A stretch of DNA of 64,000 nt from Oceanobacillus oncorhynchi (GTDB taxonomy: Bacteria > Bacillota > Bacilli > Bacillales > Amphibacillaceae). Under the pieces are notes generated by a model. That model did no database searches. It worked only from the letters and a program-made list of their open reading frames with translations, and had not been told where the DNA came from. This document shows positions 25,946 to 35,402 of the stretch, in pieces. The translations under genes and the position numbers were made by a program. The stretch is from contig NZ_CDGG01000001.1 in NCBI RefSeq assembly GCF_000821065.1, positions 3,720,001 to 3,784,000 on the forward strand, given 5' to 3'. Numbering within the stretch: the stretch's first letter is position 1; every line of letters begins with the position of its first letter.

Positions 25946-27217
25946 TTAATAAAGGGTTATAGTTGAGTCGTTCATCCCTTCAAGGATTTCTTTCACACTA
26001 GATAAAAATCTTCCGCATACAAGACCGTCTAAAATACGATGGTCTAAAGAAAGAGATAAATTCACCATATCGCGGGCAGCAAACATATCATTGATAATGA
26101 CAGGCCGTTTTACGATAGATTCGACTTGTAAAATCGCTGCTTGCGGCGAATTGATTACTCCCATTGACGAAACCGAACCAAAGGAGCCTGTATTGTTGAC
26201 AGTAAAGGTACCGCCCTGCATATCCTCCGGTGACAGCTTACCCTGACGTGCTTTGGATGCTAAGGTAGTAATATCACGGGCAATGGCTTTAATCGTTTTT
26301 TCATCTGCATGCTTAATAACTGGAACAAATAATTCTTTGTCTTTCGCCACAGCAATGGATAAATGTATATCTTTTTTCTGAATAATTTTATCTCCGGCCC
26401 ACATGCTGTTTAATTCAGGAAATTCTTTTAAACCTTGAGCCACAGCTTTTACAAAGAAAGCAAAAGGAGTTAACGAAAAGCCTTCCTGCTGCTTAAATGA
26501 TTCCTTTACACTGTTCCGGTATTTTACTAAATCTGTAACATCTACTTCCACCTGCATCCATGCATGCGGGATTTCCTGTGTGGACCGGACCATATTCTCT
26601 GCAATTACTTTCCGGACACCTTTTACAGGGATTTCAATATCTCCTGCTGCGCTTTGGATACTTTCTTTTTGCGCAGCAGGTGTTTCTTTTCCAGCAGCAG
26701 TATCTGATTTCTTTTCTTGTGAAGGGGCTGGTTCTTCTTGCGCAGAAGCACTGCTTCCAATGTGTTTTTCCACATCTTTTCTGGTAATTCTGCCTCCTCT
26801 GCCCGTTCCTTCGATTTGGTTCAAATCAATGCTGTGCTCTTGAGATAAACGTAGTACTGCCGGTGAATATCTTTTTTTCATAGAGCTTTCTGTATTTTCA
26901 GCATGCTCAGCTGTGTCCTTTTCCACTGTATTTGTTTCTTTTTCAGGAGCTGCTTCCGCATCCTCTGAAGCGGCTTGCTCTGTCTCTATATAACAGATTA
27001 GGGAACCAACTTCTACCGTTTCCCCTTCTTCTGCTGCAAGCTCTGTTATTTTACCTGTATAAGAAGATGGGATTTCGGCGTTTACTTTATCCGTCATCAC
27101 TTCAGCAATCGGGTCGTATTTATTCACTTGATCCCCGACGGAAACCAGCCAGGTACTAATCGTTCCCTCTGTTACACTCTCACCAAGCTGAGGCATTGTC
27201 ATTTTTTCCACACTCAT
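25946..27217 (-). CDS. bkdB: Branched-chain 2-oxo acid dehydrogenase, E2 dihydrolipoyl acyltransferase
   Basis: Core subunit of the BCKDH complex, transferring branched acyl groups to CoA for branched-chain fatty acid synthesis. It has 423 residues. One lipoyl domain is at 1-80 (lipoyl Lys in VMTDKVNAE, about residue 44). An acidic then Ala/Pro/Glu-rich linker follows, then a peripheral subunit-binding domain (YSPAVLRLSQEHSIDL, about 118-155), a second linker and the catalytic domain ending in the HRILDG motif with the active-site His. Last gene of the operon, 14 bases after bkdAB. Confidence 0.96.
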   Translation of the reverse strand: MSVEKMTMPQLGESVTEGTISTWLVSVGDQVNKYDPIAEVMTDKVNAEIPSSYTGKITELAAEEGETVEVGSLICYIETEQAASEDAEAAPEKETNTVEKDTAEHAENTESSMKKRYSPAVLRLSQEHSIDLNQIEGTGRGGRITRKDVEKHIGSSASAQEEPAPSQEKKSDTAAGKETPAAQKESIQSAAGDIEIPVKGVRKVIAENMVRSTQEIPHAWMQVEVDVTDLVKYRNSVKESFKQQEGFSLTPFAFFVKAVAQGLKEFPELNSMWAGDKIIQKKDIHLSIAVAKDKELFVPVIKHADEKTIKAIARDITTLASKARQGKLSPEDMQGGTFTVNNTGSFGSVSSMGVINSPQAAILQVESIVKRPVIINDMFAARDMVNLSLSLDHRILDGLVCGRFLSSVKEILEGMNDSTITLY

Positions 27218-27231
27218 ATTTCTACCTCCAA

Positions 27232-28215
27232 TTAATATTCTGCAAGGTCACGCATTGCTTTTTCCACTTTATCCGGATTTAACATAAAGTATTTTTCCAT
27301 GGACGGTGCATAAGGCATTGCCGGAACATCCGGACCTGCCAGGCGTTCAATAGGTGAATCCAGGTCAAATAAGCAGTTTTCCGAAATAATTGCAGCCACT
27401 TCACTCATTACACTGCCTTCTTTATTATCCTCTGTAACAAGCAAAACTTTTCCAGTCTTACTGGCTGCCTCAATTATAGCTTCTTGATCTAACGGATATA
27501 CCGTACGTAAATCAAGAATATGCGCATGAATGCCATCTGCTGCTAATCTTTCCGCAGCCTGCAATGCAAAGTGAACACAAAGTCCATAAGTGATGACAGT
27601 AATATCATCCCCTTCTCTTTTTACATCTGCTTTACCGATTGGCAGAACATAATCCTCTTCCGGAACCTCTTCCTTTAACAGACGATACGCACGTTTATGT
27701 TCAAAAAATAGAACAGGGTCATTATCTCGGATTGATGCCTTTAATAATCCTTTCGCATCATATGGATTCGACGGCATAACAATTTTTAATCCCGGCTGAT
27801 TCGCAAACAATGCTTCTACTGATTGGGAATGATATAAAGCACCATGTATCCCGCCGCCGTATGGAGCACGGATGGTTATCGGACAATCCCAATCATTATT
27901 GGAGCGATAGCGTATTTTGGCTGCTTCGGAAACAATCTGGTTGACCGCAGGCATAATAAAATCTGCAAACTGCATCTCAGCAATCGGCCGTTTCCCATAC
28001 ATAGCTGCACCGATAGCAACACCGGCAATTGCTGATTCCGCTAATGGGGTATCTAATACACGTTCTTCACCAAACATATCGTACAGCCCGTCTGTTGCTT
28101 TAAATACGCCGCCCTTTTTCCCTACATCTTCCCCAAGAATAAAGACATTCTCATCTCTTTGCATTTCTTCCTTTAAAGCTTTTGTAATTGCTTGTATATA
28201 AGACATCACAGGCAT
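27232..28215 (-). CDS. bkdAB: Branched-chain 2-oxo acid dehydrogenase, E1 beta
   Basis: Beta subunit of the thiamine-diphosphate-dependent E1 of BCKDH. It has 327 residues, as usual. Features seen: the GEDVGKKGGVFKAT N-terminal segment, DTPLAESAIAG, the AEMQFADF stretch that contributes to the ThDP site, YGGGIHGALYHSQS (E1-beta His loop) and a transketolase C-terminal domain with VTEDNKEGSV. It lies 2 bases after bkdAA and upstream of bkdB in one operon. Confidence 0.96.
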   Translation of the reverse strand: MPVMSYIQAITKALKEEMQRDENVFILGEDVGKKGGVFKATDGLYDMFGEERVLDTPLAESAIAGVAIGAAMYGKRPIAEMQFADFIMPAVNQIVSEAAKIRYRSNNDWDCPITIRAPYGGGIHGALYHSQSVEALFANQPGLKIVMPSNPYDAKGLLKASIRDNDPVLFFEHKRAYRLLKEEVPEEDYVLPIGKADVKREGDDITVITYGLCVHFALQAAERLAADGIHAHILDLRTVYPLDQEAIIEAASKTGKVLLVTEDNKEGSVMSEVAAIISENCLFDLDSPIERLAGPDVPAMPYAPSMEKYFMLNPDKVEKAMRDLAEY

Positions 28216-28217
28216 GA

Positions 28218-29222
28218 TTATTCCCCTCCCTTATCCAATTCCTCATAAACATACTTCAACGTATCCTCTGGAGCTGCATATGGGGCTTCTTCTGCATATT
28301 CTGTTGCTTCGTTCACAAGTGTATTGACTTTATCATGAATTTCTTTTTCTTTGGCTTCATCCATTATTTTCTTTTCTTTTAGCTTTTCAGCAAACGTAAC
28401 AATGGAATCCTTCTTTTTAGCTTCTTTTACTTCATCCATTTCACGATAAGCACTGTCATCATCATCACTGGAATGGGCAGTAAAACGATAGGTTACCGCT
28501 TCAATCAATGTCGGCCCCTCTCCTTTTACCGCTCGTTCTCTCGCTTCTTTTACAGTTTGATACACAGCTATTGGATCATTCCCGTCCACAGTAACTCCCG
28601 GCATGCCATAAGATGATGCCCTCTCTGAAACCGTTTTGCTGGCTACCTGCTTATCATACGGAACAGAAATAGCATACTTATTATTTTCCACCATGGTGAT
28701 CACCGGCAGCTGATGAACACCGGCAAAGTTTAATCCTTCATGAAAATCACCCTGATTAGAAGAGCCCTCTCCTAATGTCACAAAGGTCGCAATATCCTTT
28801 TTATCCATTTTCGCTGCTAATGCAACGCCTACTGCATGAGGAACCTGTGTTGTTACTGGAGAAGAACCGGTTAAAATACGATTTTTCTTCTGTCCGAAAT
28901 GACCAGGCATTTGACGTCCGCCTGAATTTGGATCCTCAGCTTTGGCAAAGGCAGATAACATTAATTCTTTTGCTGTCATTCCAAAGCCTAATACAAGACC
29001 CAGATCCCGATAGTACGGAGCGGTATAATCGACCGTTCGATCCAGACCAAAGGCCGCTCCGACCTGTGCTGCTTCCTGTCCCTGACAGGAAACGACGAAT
29101 GGTATTTTCCCCGAGCGGTTTAACAACCACATTCTTTCGTCAATTTTTCTTGCTAATAACATCATTTCAAACATTTCTAAAGCCATCTCATCACTTACAT
29201 TTTCCCAAGATGTTTCTGTCAT
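28218..29222 (-). CDS. bkdAA: Branched-chain 2-oxo acid dehydrogenase, E1 alpha
   Basis: Alpha subunit of the BCKDH E1 decarboxylase. I start it at the ATG at 29222 (334 residues), with AAGGAGGG 8 bases upstream; an earlier TTG lies before that site. The ThDP motif is present as GEGSSNQGDFHEGLNFA through VENNKYAIS (about 150-190). The phosphorylation-loop region HSSDDDDSAYR is near 260. It lies between lpdV and bkdAB in the operon and forms the alpha2-beta2 E1. Confidence 0.96.
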   Translation of the reverse strand: MTETSWENVSDEMALEMFEMMLLARKIDERMWLLNRSGKIPFVVSCQGQEAAQVGAAFGLDRTVDYTAPYYRDLGLVLGFGMTAKELMLSAFAKAEDPNSGGRQMPGHFGQKKNRILTGSSPVTTQVPHAVGVALAAKMDKKDIATFVTLGEGSSNQGDFHEGLNFAGVHQLPVITMVENNKYAISVPYDKQVASKTVSERASSYGMPGVTVDGNDPIAVYQTVKEARERAVKGEGPTLIEAVTYRFTAHSSDDDDSAYREMDEVKEAKKKDSIVTFAEKLKEKKIMDEAKEKEIHDKVNTLVNEATEYAEEAPYAAPEDTLKYVYEELDKGGE

Positions 29223-29280
29223 TATTTTTCCCTCCTTCAGCCATTTCACATGATGACATCATGCAGACTGCCCAGATAGT

Positions 29281-30702
29281 TTAACCATGAATTTGTAACC
29301 CGTCGACTGCCAGTGCTGCTTCACCGATAATTTCTGATAAGGACGGATGCGGGTGAATAGTCTGGCTGATTTCCCATGCTGTTGCGTCGAGCACTTTTGC
29401 TAATCCAGCTTCTGTTATCATATCTGTCACATGGGGACCAATCATATGAACCCCAATTAAATCCTGTGTCTTTTTATCTGTGATTATTTTGACAAAACCA
29501 TCTGATTCACCATAAACCAATGCCTTTCCTACTGCTTTAAATGGGAACTTGCCGATGACAAGGTCATATCCTTCTTCTTTGGCCTGTGTTTCCGTCAAGC
29601 CGACACTTGCAGCTTCCGGACTGGCATAGATACAGCTTGATACCGTCTGGTAGTCTATCTCTTGTGTATATTCCCCTGCCATATGCTCCACAGCAGCAAT
29701 TCCCTCATGGGAAGCCACATGAGCCAGCTGCATGCCTCCAATAACATCGCCAATAGCGTAAATATGTGATTCTTTTGTTTGATAAAACGCGTTTGTGTCA
29801 ATCGTATGATTAGAAATTTGAATTTCCGTATTCTCTAAACCAATATTTTGGATATTCGCTTTTCTGCCGACAGATACAAGCAGTCTGTCAGCTTCAAATC
29901 TTTCTTTTTTATCACCGATTACTGCTTCTATCACGATGCCGTTATTTTTTTCTATTGTATCCGTCTGAACATTGGCTCCGGTTATAATATTGACGCCTCT
30001 TTTTTTCAACTGTTTTTCCATCTCTTTTGCGATATCTTTATCCTCTGTCGGCAAGATTTGCTTTTGAAATTCCAAGACGGTTACATCAACTCCAAAATCG
30101 TTTAGCATGGAGGCCCATTCGATGCCAATAACTCCGCCGCCTACAATAAGCATTGATTTAGGCAGGTCCTTCATTTCTAAAGCTTCATTTGAGCTGATGA
30201 GGTACTCACCGTCAAAGTCCAGACCAGGTAATGTATTCGGCTGCGATCCGGTCGCAATTAAAACATTTTTAGGAAGCAGCATATCATTTTCATTTCCATT
30301 TTCATATTCAACAGAGATAGTTCCAGGCATTGGAGAAAAGATACTTGGTCCAAGAATGCGGCCGAACCCTTGATAGACATCAATCTTTCCCTTTTTCATT
30401 AAACCCTGGACACCTTTATGCAGCTGTTCAATAATCTCATTTTTTCTCTGCTGGACTTTTGAAAAGTTTAAGACTGGTTCGTTTACCTCTACTCCGAATG
30501 CATCTGCTTTTTTTGTCTGCTGAAAAACCTCTGCACTGCGAAGTAATGCTTTAGAGGGTATGCAGCCTCTGTGTAAGCAGGTCCCTCCCAGCTCAGATTT
30601 CTCTACTATTGCCACTTTCATGCCTAATTGAGTGGCACGAATAGCAGAAACATAGCCTCCTGTTCCGCCCCCTAAAATGACTAAATCGTACTCAGTTGCC
30701 AT
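29281..30702 (-). CDS. lpdV: Dihydrolipoyl dehydrogenase (E3)
   Basis: FAD enzyme that reoxidises the lipoyl group of BkdB with NAD. It has 473 residues. FAD-binding ILGGGTGGYVSAI is at the N-terminus, the redox disulfide is in GGTCLHRGCIPSK (about 42-54), NAD-binding VGGGVIGIEWAS is near residue 179, and the C-terminal HPHPSLSE motif holds the catalytic His-Glu pair. One base pair separates its start from the butyrate kinase-like stop, so the genes are translated in tandem. Confidence 0.96.
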   Translation of the reverse strand: MATEYDLVILGGGTGGYVSAIRATQLGMKVAIVEKSELGGTCLHRGCIPSKALLRSAEVFQQTKKADAFGVEVNEPVLNFSKVQQRKNEIIEQLHKGVQGLMKKGKIDVYQGFGRILGPSIFSPMPGTISVEYENGNENDMLLPKNVLIATGSQPNTLPGLDFDGEYLISSNEALEMKDLPKSMLIVGGGVIGIEWASMLNDFGVDVTVLEFQKQILPTEDKDIAKEMEKQLKKRGVNIITGANVQTDTIEKNNGIVIEAVIGDKKERFEADRLLVSVGRKANIQNIGLENTEIQISNHTIDTNAFYQTKESHIYAIGDVIGGMQLAHVASHEGIAAVEHMAGEYTQEIDYQTVSSCIYASPEAASVGLTETQAKEEGYDLVIGKFPFKAVGKALVYGESDGFVKIITDKKTQDLIGVHMIGPHVTDMITEAGLAKVLDATAWEISQTIHPHPSLSEIIGEAALAVDGLQIHG

Positions 30703-31797
30703 CTAATTTGCCTCCTCTGCAACATATATCTTTTCTTTCTGGGTATTGTTTAAAACCTCTAATACGCCCTCATTCATCGCTTCTAAATCATTTTTACCAG
30801 GAAACACCATCACATCGGCAATCCAATTGACTCTTGGAATAACCGCATCAATAACAAAATCATTTTCATTGATTTTTCCAGTAAAAACAATGCCATCTAC
30901 TTCTCCATGCAATACCGTGCTCATTGCTCCAATTTCTTTAGCAATCTGGTATGCCTGTGCCTCAATTACTTCTTTCGTATACTGATCACCTTTCGTCAGC
31001 CGGGAACGGATGATGGAAGGGTCCTCTGTATGCAGATATGCTTTGATTCCCCCATCCTGCTGGACATGATTCCACAAAAAATCTTCATCTGTAGTGTATT
31101 GTTCAGATAGATAAGTCAGAAATCCTTTTAACGGTATACTGCCGGATCGATCGATAGTAAACGGACCCTCTCCGTCTACGCCATTCGTTACATCAATAAT
31201 TTTGCCGCTATGATGGGATGCAATGGTAATCCCTCTTGCAATATGAATGGAAATGAGCTTTAACGAATGATAGGCTGAACCAATTTGTTTTGCCGCAATC
31301 CGGCCGGCATGACGATGATTTAGCGAATGAAAGATACTGGCTCTCTCTATTTCCGGTATACCTGTATATTTTGCAATGGTTTGCAGTTCATCTACTACCG
31401 GCGGGTCAACAATATATGCTTGTATATTTAAATTCTCAGCAATTTCATGGGCTAGAACAGCTCCCAAATTGGATACATGTTCCCCGTAAGCATTTGTTTT
31501 TAAATCATATAGCATCGCGTTATTCACTTTATACGTTCCGCCGCTGATTGGACGCAATAGTCCTCCCCGCCCGCATACACTAATAAAACGTGATGTATTC
31601 ATTCCATCCAAATCAAGCTGTTCAAATATAGCCTGCTTTCTGTACGGCACTTGCTCCATCAGCTGTTCAAAACGATGCAGTTCATCTTCGTTATGTGAAA
31701 TTTTTTGCTGATATAAAAGATGATTTCCTTCAAATACACCGATCGTGGTGAAATACAAGTCGGGGTAGATAACTAAAATACTACCACGTTGATTCAC
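30703..31797 (-). CDS. buk: Butyrate kinase homologue with degenerate active-site motifs
   Basis: Member of the acetate/butyrate kinase (ASKHA) fold by length (364 residues), operon position and several family stretches: GRGGLLRPI (76-84), GEHVSNLG, DPPVVDE (131-137), the GVDGEGPF segment with RSG (217-219) and AYQIAKEIGAM. The three nucleotide/phosphate motifs are altered. The N-terminal loop expected to read NPGSTSTK is YPDLYFTT (11-18). The phosphate-2 loop expected as H-x-GGG is HIARGIT (185-191). The adenosine motif expected as TGGxAYSK is TGKINEND (306-313). The frame is fully open and the start is a GTG with GGAGG 7 bases upstream, so this is a maintained gene, not a broken one. Kinase activity is doubtful. 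Confidence 0.85.
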   Translation of the reverse strand: MNQRGSILVIYPDLYFTTIGVFEGNHLLYQQKISHNEDELHRFEQLMEQVPYRKQAIFEQLDLDGMNTSRFISVCGRGGLLRPISGGTYKVNNAMLYDLKTNAYGEHVSNLGAVLAHEIAENLNIQAYIVDPPVVDELQTIAKYTGIPEIERASIFHSLNHRHAGRIAAKQIGSAYHSLKLISIHIARGITIASHHSGKIIDVTNGVDGEGPFTIDRSGSIPLKGFLTYLSEQYTTDEDFLWNHVQQDGGIKAYLHTEDPSIIRSRLTKGDQYTKEVIEAQAYQIAKEIGAMSTVLHGEVDGIVFTGKINENDFVIDAVIPRVNWIADVMVFPGKNDLEAMNEGVLEVLNNTQKEKIYVAEEAN

Positions 31798-31858
31798 AAA
31801 ATACCCTCCAATATGCCGTTCTTCCAAAGCTGTAAATGATAAGTACAACAGTAAATTT

Positions 31859-32956
31859 CTATTGTCGGCGATCTAAAATATTTCGCTCATTTGTAAGAAA
31901 TTGACTGCGTGATTGTTGTTTTGCTTGAATTCTTTCCTCAGCCAGACGATCAGCCGCAATATAAGTCGGTACCTGATCACGATTAGAAATGGCAAAGACC
32001 TGCTCCAGATTTTTATAGATGCGCTGTACATTATGTAAAGCGCGATCGCGATTGTAACCAACCAGTTCATCTGCAACATTGATTACCCCGCCTGCATTGA
32101 TCACATAATCAGGAGCATATAAAATTCCTTTTTGATGCAGAATATCTCCATGTTCATGACTCTGCAGCTGATTATTAGCCGAACCTGCAATTACTTTAGC
32201 TTTCAGCCTCGGTATCGTATGATCATTAATGGTTGCTCCAAGTGCGCAAGGAGCATAGATATCGCATTCCACATCATAAATATCATCTGGATCGACTGCT
32301 TTGGCATTAAAATCATTTTCCGCACGCTTCACAGCTTCCTTATTAATATCTGTAACAACTAATTCTGCGCCCTCTTCATGCAATAATTCGCATAGGCTGT
32401 AAGCCACGTTTCCGACTCCTTGAACTGCAACAACTTTGCCCTCTAAAGATTCTGATCCGAATGCTTCTTTTGCAGTTGCTTTCATCCCCTGATAAATTCC
32501 CCATGCAGTAACAGGGGAAGGATTGCCGGCAGTTCCGCTGTAGGAGGACAATCCCGTTACATATTCTGTTTCAAGCGCAATTTGATCCATATCTGATTCA
32601 TTCGTTCCTACATCCTCAGCAGTGATGTATCTTCCATTCAAGCTTTGGATATAACGACCGAATGCACGGAACATTTCCGGATTCTTATCCTTTTTGGAAT
32701 CTCCGATAATTACTGTTTTTCCGCCGCCGAGATCTAAGCCGGCTGCCGCATTTTTATATGTCATTCCGCGAGCTAAACGCAGTGCGTCTTCGATAGCTTC
32801 TGCTTCTGAACGATACGTCCACATTCTGGTCCCGCCTAATGCTGGTCCTAATGTCGTGTCATGAATGGCAATAATAGCCTTTAGCCCTGATTGTTTATCC
32901 TGACAGAAAAGTACCTGTTCATAATCGTATTTTTCTAAGTAACTGAAGATTTCCAT
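31859..32956 (-). CDS. bcd: Leucine (branched-chain amino acid) dehydrogenase
   Basis: NAD-dependent oxidative deamination of Leu, Ile and Val to the 2-oxo acids used by the BKD complex. I use the ATG at 32956 (365 residues, the family length), with AGGAGGGG 6 bases upstream. Features: the catalytic Lys in [12 protein letters not shown] (about residue 80), the TAEDVGT segment, and the NAD-binding GVGNVAY Rossmann turn (about 180). It is the first gene of the operon here; in B. subtilis ptb precedes it. bkdR lies upstream in the same direction. Confidence 0.95.
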
Positions 32957-33034
32957 CTTAACCCCTCCTGTAATACATCGTGATTCACTAATCATACATA
33001 CTTATTTAAAATGACAAATGAATCCAACTCCTGA

Positions 33035-33063
33035 ATGGTATGCTATTGTAATACATTTGTCAG
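33035..33063 (-). promoter_or_regulatory. Possible sigma-A-like promoter of the bcd-bkd operon
   Basis: On the minus strand CTGACA (33058-33063), 17 bases, TACCAT (33035-33040). A second possible -35, TTGTCA (33012-33017), lies nearer the gene. A 16-base dyad ACGGAG-aacc-CTCCGT (33079-33094) lies about 20 bases further upstream, a plausible regulator site. I searched this 190-base gap by eye for the -24/-12 pattern TGGCAC-N5-TTGC and found none. Confidence 0.35.
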
Positions 33064-33147
33064 TATTCCCTATTTACCACGGAGAACCCTCCGTAAATTT
33101 TCCACAGCATGATATACCTGCCCTCCCTGCAAAATGTTGCAGACACC

Positions 33148-35190
33148 TTATTCAAGCTGATATTTTTCAAGCTTATAATACAAATTGCGGACAGATATTT
33201 GTAACGCTTTTGCTGTCTTTGTCTTGTTTTTATTACATTGCAGATACACTTCCTGCAAGTATTTTTTTTCAAAACGATCTAACGCTTCCTGTAATTTTAA
33301 TGGTTTATCTGTCTGTACCATATCCGGTCCTGCTGTCATTTCTTTCGTTTGCAATTTAGGCAAATGAGATACTTCAATCTGCTCCTCCATGTTGCCGATA
33401 AATATCATGGAATGACTGATAACATTAGCCATTTCCCTGACATTCCCCGGCCAATGATATGCCATTAGTTTTTTTAACGCTTCATCCGATATCTTTTGCA
33501 CATTTTTTCCATATTCTTCGTTCAGCTGATGGATGATATGCTCCACCAACTCAGGGATATCCTCCTCCCGTTCCTTTAGCGATGGGATGGATATTGGAAG
33601 TTTATTAATGAGATAATAAAGATCTTCACGAAATTTCTCATTCATCACAGCCTTCTCCAGATTTGTATTCGTTCCGGCAATCACGCGGACATCAACCGGC
33701 ACCGAATTGGATGCGCCGACTGGAGTGACTCTGTTCTCCTTGAGTACATGGATTAATTTTTCCTGGATTGATAAAGATAATTCACCAATTTCATCAAGAA
33801 AGATGCTTCCATTGTTCGCCTGTTCAAACAGACCTTCCTTTTTTTTCAAATGTTCTGCCTGCTCCTCTGCCGAACCAAACAGCTCTTTTTCCAGCATTGG
33901 TTCTGACAATGCAGCACAGTTCACACGAATAAATTTATTAAATTTCCGATCACTTTCATGGTGTATTGCATGGGCGAATAATTCTTTGCCGGTGCCGGTT
34001 TCCCCTCTCAAAAGAACAATAGCCGGTGCTTTGGCAGCTACTTTTGCCTGTTCTAAAGCAAGCTTCATTTCGGATGAGTTACCAATAATATCATCGAATG
34101 TATACCTTGCTTCCAAATTACGGATGATTTGTCTGGCACGCTTTAACTCCCTTGTCACAGATTGTAATTCACTGACGTCATGGAGCACGCCGACACTGCC
34201 TTTTATCTTTCCTTGTACAATCACTGGCGCCCCGTTAACGATAACATCTTTTTTTGACGGTCCGACCTTCATATGTACACCGCGAACAGCACGCCGGTTT
34301 TTTAAGACCTTCATGTGCACACTGTCCCCTTCAGATATATCTACTGTTGCCGGCTTCCCTATTACTTCCTCTTCGGTCAGACCAGTGATTCTCGTATAGG
34401 CGGGATTAATAATTAAGCCTTTTCCATGCTCATCCACCACACTGATTGCCTCATCCGAAGATTTAATAATGGCTTCCAGCATGGTTTTGATTTCATTTAA
34501 ATCGGTATTTTCTTCTGCTAATTGCACTACTTCCGTAATGTCTTTAAAAACAGCAAAGGCTCCCACTAAATCTCCTGTTTTATTAATAATGGGGATACGT
34601 GAAGCAATCACTTTCTTGCCATTATCTAAAATTGTCTTTTGGTTTAACTCTTTTCTTTGACTCCTTAACACGTGAGATAAACGATTTGTTTTGAGTAAAT
34701 CTTTGATATGCTTCCCTTTGTAGTCTTTTTCTTTTTTGCCGAGAATTTGTTCCGCCCGGCGATTCAACAGCTGAACCTGTTCCATTTTATTGACAACAAT
34801 CATGCCGTCATTCATATGGTTTAAAATTAATTCCAAACGGCTCGCCTGTACTTTTACTTCATCTGTTAAAACAGTTTTTTCATGAATTAATTCATAAATA
34901 ATATTGGCTACAGAACCAGGGATGATAATTGTCTTTCTTGGAAACAGCTCAATCATCTTTTCAAATAATTCCTCTTCGCCTGTTACGTTAATTACAATAT
35001 CAATGTCATGGTGAATCCAATCTTTCCACTCTGTACTTGTATGAACATCCATTTCTTCCGCAAGCTTCATAGCAGGAGCGTCTGCGTCCTTGTCAACGAT
35101 TGCACAAATCTGCATGCTTTTTGTTTCTTTAAACAGGCGGAATAATGCTGTACCACCTTTACCAGCGCCGACTATCAGAATTTGCTTCAT
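33148..35190 (-). CDS. bkdR: BkdR-type AAA+ regulator lacking the GAFTGA loop
   Basis: Transcriptional regulator of the bkd operon. It has 680 residues from the ATG at 35190 (AAGGTGG 9 bases upstream). Domains in order: an N-terminal Rossmann-like domain with GAGKGG (about 8-13), two PAS domains (about 115-225 and 235-345), an AAA+ domain with Walker A GETGTGKE (396-403), Walker B FLDE (464-467) and the NLxxA/FREDLYY sensor region, and a C-terminal Fis-type HTH (about 647-677). Between ELFG and GLFE, where sigma-54 activators carry GAFTGA, it has SAEEQAEHLKKKE (about 439-451). That loss predicts failure to engage sigma-54. Identity as BkdR rests on domain order and its position before bcd. 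Confidence 0.88.
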   Translation of the reverse strand: MKQILIVGAGKGGTALFRLFKETKSMQICAIVDKDADAPAMKLAEEMDVHTSTEWKDWIHHDIDIVINVTGEEELFEKMIELFPRKTIIIPGSVANIIYELIHEKTVLTDEVKVQASRLELILNHMNDGMIVVNKMEQVQLLNRRAEQILGKKEKDYKGKHIKDLLKTNRLSHVLRSQRKELNQKTILDNGKKVIASRIPIINKTGDLVGAFAVFKDITEVVQLAEENTDLNEIKTMLEAIIKSSDEAISVVDEHGKGLIINPAYTRITGLTEEEVIGKPATVDISEGDSVHMKVLKNRRAVRGVHMKVGPSKKDVIVNGAPVIVQGKIKGSVGVLHDVSELQSVTRELKRARQIIRNLEARYTFDDIIGNSSEMKLALEQAKVAAKAPAIVLLRGETGTGKELFAHAIHHESDRKFNKFIRVNCAALSEPMLEKELFGSAEEQAEHLKKKEGLFEQANNGSIFLDEIGELSLSIQEKLIHVLKENRVTPVGASNSVPVDVRVIAGTNTNLEKAVMNEKFREDLYYLINKLPISIPSLKEREEDIPELVEHIIHQLNEEYGKNVQKISDEALKKLMAYHWPGNVREMANVISHSMIFIGNMEEQIEVSHLPKLQTKEMTAGPDMVQTDKPLKLQEALDRFEKKYLQEVYLQCNKNKTKTAKALQISVRNLYYKLEKYQLE

Positions 35191-35402
35191 ACTTTTCATC
35201 CACCTTGAATTTATTTGCACAGTTTCATCATACGATACCATGCATAATTTAGCAAATGAATTCTATTTCTATTTTTCGACGTATTTTGATATACTTATAA
35301 TGAAGTTTTAAGAAATTATTTGATTAAAAATAAAGAGGCATCTGAACGGACAGAAGATTGATGAATGATTGCAAGTATATCTATAAAGGAGCAGGAGTTT
35401 TT

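Follow-up and report, generated by a model that had tools for sequence, protein, structure and literature searches.

A BkdR regulator without the GAFTGA loop in Oceanobacillus oncorhynchi, and the repeated, paired absence of loop and sigma-54 promoter among its orthologues

In Bacillus thuringiensis, the dependence of the bkd operon on sigma-54 and BkdR was established with lacZ fusions and mutants, and an equal sigma-54 dependence is cited for B. subtilis in the same source (PMC4428206). With the BkdR of these species, the protein described here shares two PAS domains, an AAA+ domain, the target operon and a co-directional regulator gene upstream of it. The B. thuringiensis system has a GAFTGA loop and a -24/-12 promoter, TTGGCACGGTATTTGCT (PMC4428206), whereas both have been lost at the locus studied here. 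A second group of described systems comprises activators with a broken GAFTGA motif: according to PMC3162934, TyrR, DhaR and HupR are sigma-70 dependent, and VpsR and YplP have been proposed to be sigma-54-independent and are suspected of acting with sigma-70. Like the present BkdR, Escherichia coli TyrR is a relative of the sigma-54 activators without a working GAFTGA, but it is non-orthologous and belongs to a different pathway; the loop is also deleted or changed in DhaR, HupR, VpsR and YplP, which again serve other pathways. The present protein matches the solved VpsR structure 7v2b in sequence (E 1.6e-44). While activator relatives without GAFTGA are already known, the repeated and paired loss of loop and promoter within one orthologue is, to our knowledge, new. 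The open literature examined on BkdR, GAFTGA and SigL, on Oceanobacillus sigma-54 and on motif loss yielded no report of a loop-less BkdR.

The window, a stretch of 64,000 nucleotides from the O. oncorhynchi genome to which plain coordinates refer below, encodes this regulator on its minus strand. A start at 35190 was preferred over that of the longer ORF at 35241, with AAGGTGG lying 9 nt 5' of ATGAAGCAA, a layout also found in aligned relatives. Operon context, domain architecture and tree position identify the product as a BkdR orthologue. With the NCBIfam equivalog of the TyrR family it scored 261.6 bits, below the cut-off of 576. Its features are as follows.

33148..35190, minus strand: bkdR, 680 aa, BkdR without GAFTGA (ORF reading, Pfam, start comparison)
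34531..34812, minus strand: PAS domain 1, PF13426 (Pfam)
34174..34482, minus strand: PAS domain 2, PF00989 (Pfam)
33982..34005, minus strand: Walker A, GETGTGKE (ORF and alignment)
33835..33873, minus strand: SAEEQAEHLKKKE in place of the GAFTGA loop, residues 440-452 (ORF and alignment)
33790..33807, minus strand: Walker B, SIFLDE (ORF and alignment)
33610..33633, minus strand: FREDLYYL, first arginine finger kept, second replaced by Leu (alignment)
33160..33282, minus strand: Fis-type HTH, PF02954, 32 bits (Pfam)

A sequence-only reading of the window had described this protein as lacking GAFTGA, the loop by which activators contact sigma-54, with Walker A, Walker B, FREDLYY and the Fis-type HTH intact. 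Both points are borne out by the ORF, which reads ELFG-SAEEQAEHLKKKE-GLFE and has its Walker A within RGETGTGKELFA. The residue following FREDLYY, however, is Leu, as against Arg in 98/98 loop-intact orthologues, so the ATPase machinery is only partly intact. The arginine fingers are assigned by analogy with PspF. The AAA+ sigma-54 interaction domain PF00158 is recognized (185.9 bits, cut-off 20.2) and is accompanied by an AAA+ lid. The protein retains one defining feature of a bEBP, PF00158, without GAFTGA, the full pair of arginine fingers or a neighbouring -24/-12 promoter, and it shows the sequence features of a TyrR-like mode, namely the absence of GAFTGA with a conserved AAA+ domain and Fis-type HTH. 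The N-terminal region (34852-35190) carries a Rossmann-like stretch, GAGKGG, with DapB_N and NAD_binding_3 Pfam matches slightly below cut-off, and could possibly be a dinucleotide sensor.

The regulator gene lies directly upstream of bcd-buk-lpdV-bkdAA-bkdAB-bkdB, the operon for the breakdown of branched-chain amino acids.

31859..32956, minus strand: bcd (leucine dehydrogenase type), first gene past bkdR (start taken from alignment)
25946..31848, minus strand: buk, lpdV, bkdAA, bkdAB and bkdB (domain searches and gene order)

The gene following bkdR is bcd, never ptb, in 23/23 loci examined in the genus (30703-33147 in the window). The sole PTA_PTB match of this genome (C1:534970-535914, 433 bits) is perhaps Pta, and buk is nonetheless present.

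The surrounding genome, a single contig of 4.6 Mb, encodes two sigma-54 proteins, a normal SigL (166.9 bits) and a divergent one (89.7 bits). Ten proteins matched PF00158. Six of them exceeded 140 bits: besides BkdR, these are five proteins that carry GAFTGA or GSFTGA. No GAFTGA was seen in the four weak matches (37 bits or less). Five exact TTGGCAYN5TTGCW sites were listed. Two of them lie a short way downstream of the activators at 1.456 and 3.183 Mb, and a third is some 4 kb away from the PF00158 match at 0.805 Mb; one mismatch gave 135 places vs 55 for the reversed control. Since sigL, motif-bearing activators and -24/-12 sites are all present, sigma-54 control appears to be operating in this genome, with BkdR alone among the six strong matches lacking the motif. 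Two checks proposed with the sequence-only reading, for sigL and for GAFTGA in other AAA+ regulators, were thus positive, and a missing sigma-54 is ruled out as the reason for the loss of the loop. The gene for the divergent sigma-54 is found close to a GAFTGA activator of its own and to a cluster that looks catabolic, at L081 in this genome (C1:1665500-1685000) and at L232 (G010:C2:161000-180500). In both genomes this activator is flanked by two promoter-like sites with a normal -24 element but TTTC rather than TTGC at -12, so that the divergent protein could be a paralogue with altered -12 specificity.

Orthologues were found in 23 of 28 genomes of the genus and, at an E cut-off of 1e-110, in 103 of 159 genomes of the family; 95 of the 103 loci were fetched, the remaining eight all coming from one genus code (g36). 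From 75 further, named loci, 39 duplicated existing rows, three were dropped (L208, on a short contig, with an intact loop and its sole promoter-like site at +267; L225, truncated; L231, a non-orthologue) and 33 were added, giving a total of 128. Under a loop rule adapted from the substitutions in PMC3162934, which scored DAFSGA (L111) and GTFSGA (L201) as intact and left L155 to be scored as lost after reading by eye, 98 of these were classed as having a GAFTGA-type loop and 30 as loop-less. Alignment of relatives, as the sequence-only reading had recommended, shows that the loss is a feature of a whole clade and recurs in other lineages. Among the named loci, the BkdR proteins closest to the window's are those of Oceanobacillus jeddahense, O. 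sojae, O. neutriphilus and two further Oceanobacillus species, and the loss is common to eight species-level genomes of this genus. Seven of the eight are among the 23 genus genomes with an orthologue, which also include two members of a second loop-less clade, and the eighth (L160) came from the further loci. Besides these eight rows, loop-less proteins occur in O. luteolus, O. indicireducens and O. alkalisoli (three rows), Sediminibacillus massiliensis and five further species (six), Piscibacillus, Filobacillus and Aquisalibacillus (four) and Cerasibacillus (two), the remaining seven rows being more divergent. As the loop is missing from all eight members of the clade and from several lineages outside it, a sequencing error is ruled out.

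The loss of the loop is mirrored downstream of the gene.

32957..33147, minus strand: 191-bp gap between bkdR and bcd; no -24/-12 promoter, top score 9.5 (maximum 15) (promoter scoring)

The intergenic gap downstream of bkdR was scored for TGGCACG-N4-TTGCA (maximum 15), with a cut-off of 13 that was chosen after the scores were known. A first scoring had spanned -100 to +500, where L155 reached 13 inside ptb; confined to the gap, it scored 11. A canonical promoter (13 or more) follows bkdR in 92 of 98 loop-intact loci vs none of the 30 loop-less ones, whose top score is 11.5, and only 10 of 12,800 shuffled regions, preserving base composition only, reach 13. Fisher's test gave 1e-23 for the association, taking as independent 128 rows that are in fact related. 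A tree computed after removal of the loop columns required at least 7 loop changes and 11 promoter changes. Across six independent pairs on supported branches, the promoter changed in the same direction as the loop in 5.5 on average and never in the opposite one (median p 0.03, range 0.03-0.125). A single origin of the two Oceanobacillus losses was rejected (p-AU 0.000124, careful tree of 32 rows), and the large tree, a quick LG+G4 analysis with several weakly supported deep nodes, placed the window's clade as sister to L064 and L065, both with loop and promoter, with a support of 100. Sites with two mismatches or fewer number 68 in the window vs 68.5 expected, and none falls in the bkdR-bcd gap; a one-mismatch site at 30880-30895 was discarded as lying within buk. 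These comparisons, together with a decay of arginine fingers in 20/30 loop-less vs 1/98 loop-intact proteins, lend strong support to the earlier prediction that this BkdR would be unable to activate a sigma-54 promoter, and strongly suggest that it no longer works with sigma-54.

Six loci (L111, L121, L130, L141, L185 and L201) have a GAFTGA-type loop and no gap promoter; because L111 and L121 are sisters, they represent about five events. In two of them, those with DAFSGA and GTFSGA, the loop itself already deviates. Since these six have a loop without a promoter and 0/30 loop-less loci have a promoter without a loop, the promoter was probably lost first, although in the six loci it may have been relocated beyond the scanned gap. 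L141 also lacks sigL, and it alone among the loop-intact proteins has its first arginine finger changed (to Lys). At least one finger is replaced in the 20 decayed loop-less proteins, the window's included. The second finger, kept in all 98 loop-intact proteins, persists in 16 of the 30 loop-less ones and is lost in 8/8 members of the window's clade; its loss followed that of the loop in 2/6 independent pairs and the opposite never occurred, numbers that do not allow a test. Three loop-less proteins have lost the Asp of Walker B and two have Asp in place of its Glu; the Lys of Walker A and the Arg of the HTH are retained in 30/30. In the family set, sigL was not found in 9/24 loop-less genomes, 1/67 genomes with loop and promoter, and 1/4 with the loop only. 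The switch thus often occurs in genomes that still have sigL, among them the 7/7 tested in the window's clade.

The loop-less gene is nevertheless maintained by purifying selection. All eight clade members have open bkdR frames, and mean dN/dS across five domains ranges from 0.02 to 0.10, as computed from 20-28 of the 28 clade pairs by domain after exclusion of pairs with saturated dS, dS being near saturation in general. The AAA+ domain evolves faster in the clade (0.058) than in 45 pairs of loop-intact proteins with comparable identity (0.027), with PAS1 and HTH slower than in those pairs. The AAA+ values were 0.034 and 0.048 in the nearest loop-intact Oceanobacillus, and 0.032 in another loop-less group. 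Thus, the acceleration is clear only against the wide loop-intact set and is absent from one other loop-less group.

Also retained is a sequence that would be a target for the HTH.

33128..33141, no strand assigned: exact enhancer- or operator-like palindrome TGCAA-N4-TTGCA (alignment, genome pattern search)

In most orthologues this palindrome surrounds the bkdR stop codon. It lies roughly 45-75 bp upstream of the -24 box in loop-intact Oceanobacillus loci, plausibly the place of an enhancer. It scores 9-10 of 10 in seven of the eight members of the window's clade and is lost in one (L058). Scores of 6-7 in the O. luteolus group, Cerasibacillus, L149, L154 and the Piscibacillus group indicate that it may be gone from these loop-less lineages. 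The exact pattern occurs at 9 places in the genome vs 3 for its reverse. We infer that BkdR binds the palindrome. Just 3' of the bkdR stop, the gaps of L076, L077, L099, L111, L121, L125, L151 and L152 contain AAGCGCTTWCA boxes resembling CcpA cre sites.

A candidate promoter for bkdR itself precedes the gene.

35227..35255, minus strand: sigma-A-like bkdR promoter TTGCTA-N17-TATGAT (conserved among relatives)

It is identical in 8/8 clade members and similar in loop-intact relatives, with a score that is weak against shuffles in the clade (p 0.11-0.19). Its spacer, in relatives too, contains a conserved TTGCY-N6-TGCA, spotted by eye and unneeded by sigma-A alone, which is suggestive of an autoregulatory site.

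We regard it as very probable that the window's BkdR is a DNA-binding regulator independent of sigma-54 and kept under selection, and as likely that it is a former sigma-54 activator now working as a ligand-responsive modulator of sigma-A transcription. The ancestor of the clade's BkdR would have been an ordinary sigma-54 activator of the bkd operon. The operon would probably have lost its -24/-12 promoter first, the GAFTGA loop then being replaced and the arginine finger decaying, with the sensor and DNA-binding domains under selection throughout. Most likely responding to a ligand in the manner of TyrR or VpsR, BkdR would act from the palindrome between bkdR and bcd, perhaps with an additional site at its own promoter, and modulate sigma-A polymerase started either upstream of bkdR, by read-through, or within the gap. 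The retained operator-like site and HTH fit the suggestion in the sequence-only reading of a role with sigma-A polymerase or as a repressor, as in TyrR-like proteins.

It is possible, if doubtful, that BkdR is a pure repressor or autoregulator of a bkdR-bkd sigma-A unit, its AAA+ domain being merely an ATP-binding scaffold for oligomerisation. The retained palindrome lies downstream of the bkdR promoter, the second arginine finger is gone throughout the clade, and where ptb follows bkdR the gap measures 18-43 bp in all 12 loop-less loci, vs 49-198 bp in 70 loop-intact loci, suggesting a single transcription unit that begins with bkdR. Where bcd follows, gaps are 57-322 bp in 18 loop-less and 130-280 bp in 28 loop-intact loci. 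Gaps of 18-91 bp suggest read-through from bkdR in the lineages that have them, but that of the window measures 191 bp, and a site between promoter and operon is compatible with either sign of regulation. No terminator-like site was found in the window's gap.

It is rather unlikely that BkdR activates a sigma-A promoter newly arisen between bkdR and bcd, through contact with RNA polymerase as in TyrR or VpsR. The palindrome is still in place upstream, and there is precedent in TyrR, DhaR and HupR (PMC3162934). A CTGACA-N17-TACCAT site at 33035-33063 was considered as a promoter derived from the old -24 box and rejected, as it does not exceed shuffled sequences (p 0.23) and ranks as the best site in none of the seven other clade members; no gap in the eight members has a sigma-A-like promoter above shuffles (p 0.23-0.88). 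That the clade's BkdR is decaying and has ceased to regulate bkd altogether would account for the missing loop and finger and for the one lost palindrome, but it is improbable given the open frames, the low dN/dS in every domain and an HTH arginine retained in 30/30 loop-less orthologues. Least of all do we expect BkdR to remain a sigma-54 activator using a different loop and a promoter too diverged or distant for the scan: sigL and, in this genome and G010, the divergent sigma-54 are present, but the promoter is kept at 0/30 loop-less loci, near-matches in the window are at their expected number, and the second sigma-54 passes the cut-off in only 2/7 clade genomes.

Beyond a ligand-responsive regulator in this clade, we tentatively entertain, at somewhat less than even chances, a repeatable path from sigma-54 control to a regulator that is gated by a ligand, probably deficient in hydrolysis, and acts on a sigma-A unit by binding an operator. 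The -24/-12 promoter, the GAFTGA loop, and the arginine fingers with sometimes Walker B would be lost in that order; the sensors, the HTH and often the old enhancer would be kept; and the departure of bkd would often precede, and may favour, the loss of sigL from the genome.

For loop-less BkdR proteins, the label 'sigma-54-dependent regulator' would be misleading. Single GAFTGA-less activators such as TyrR are known, and their origin is less clear. Here, one orthologous regulator at a fixed locus has switched several times, which amounts to a natural experiment in changing the mode of control. Because each lineage shows whether promoter, loop, arginine fingers and sigL are kept or lost, and the six promoter-less, loop-bearing orthologues are possible intermediates, the order in which a regulator leaves sigma-54 control becomes testable.
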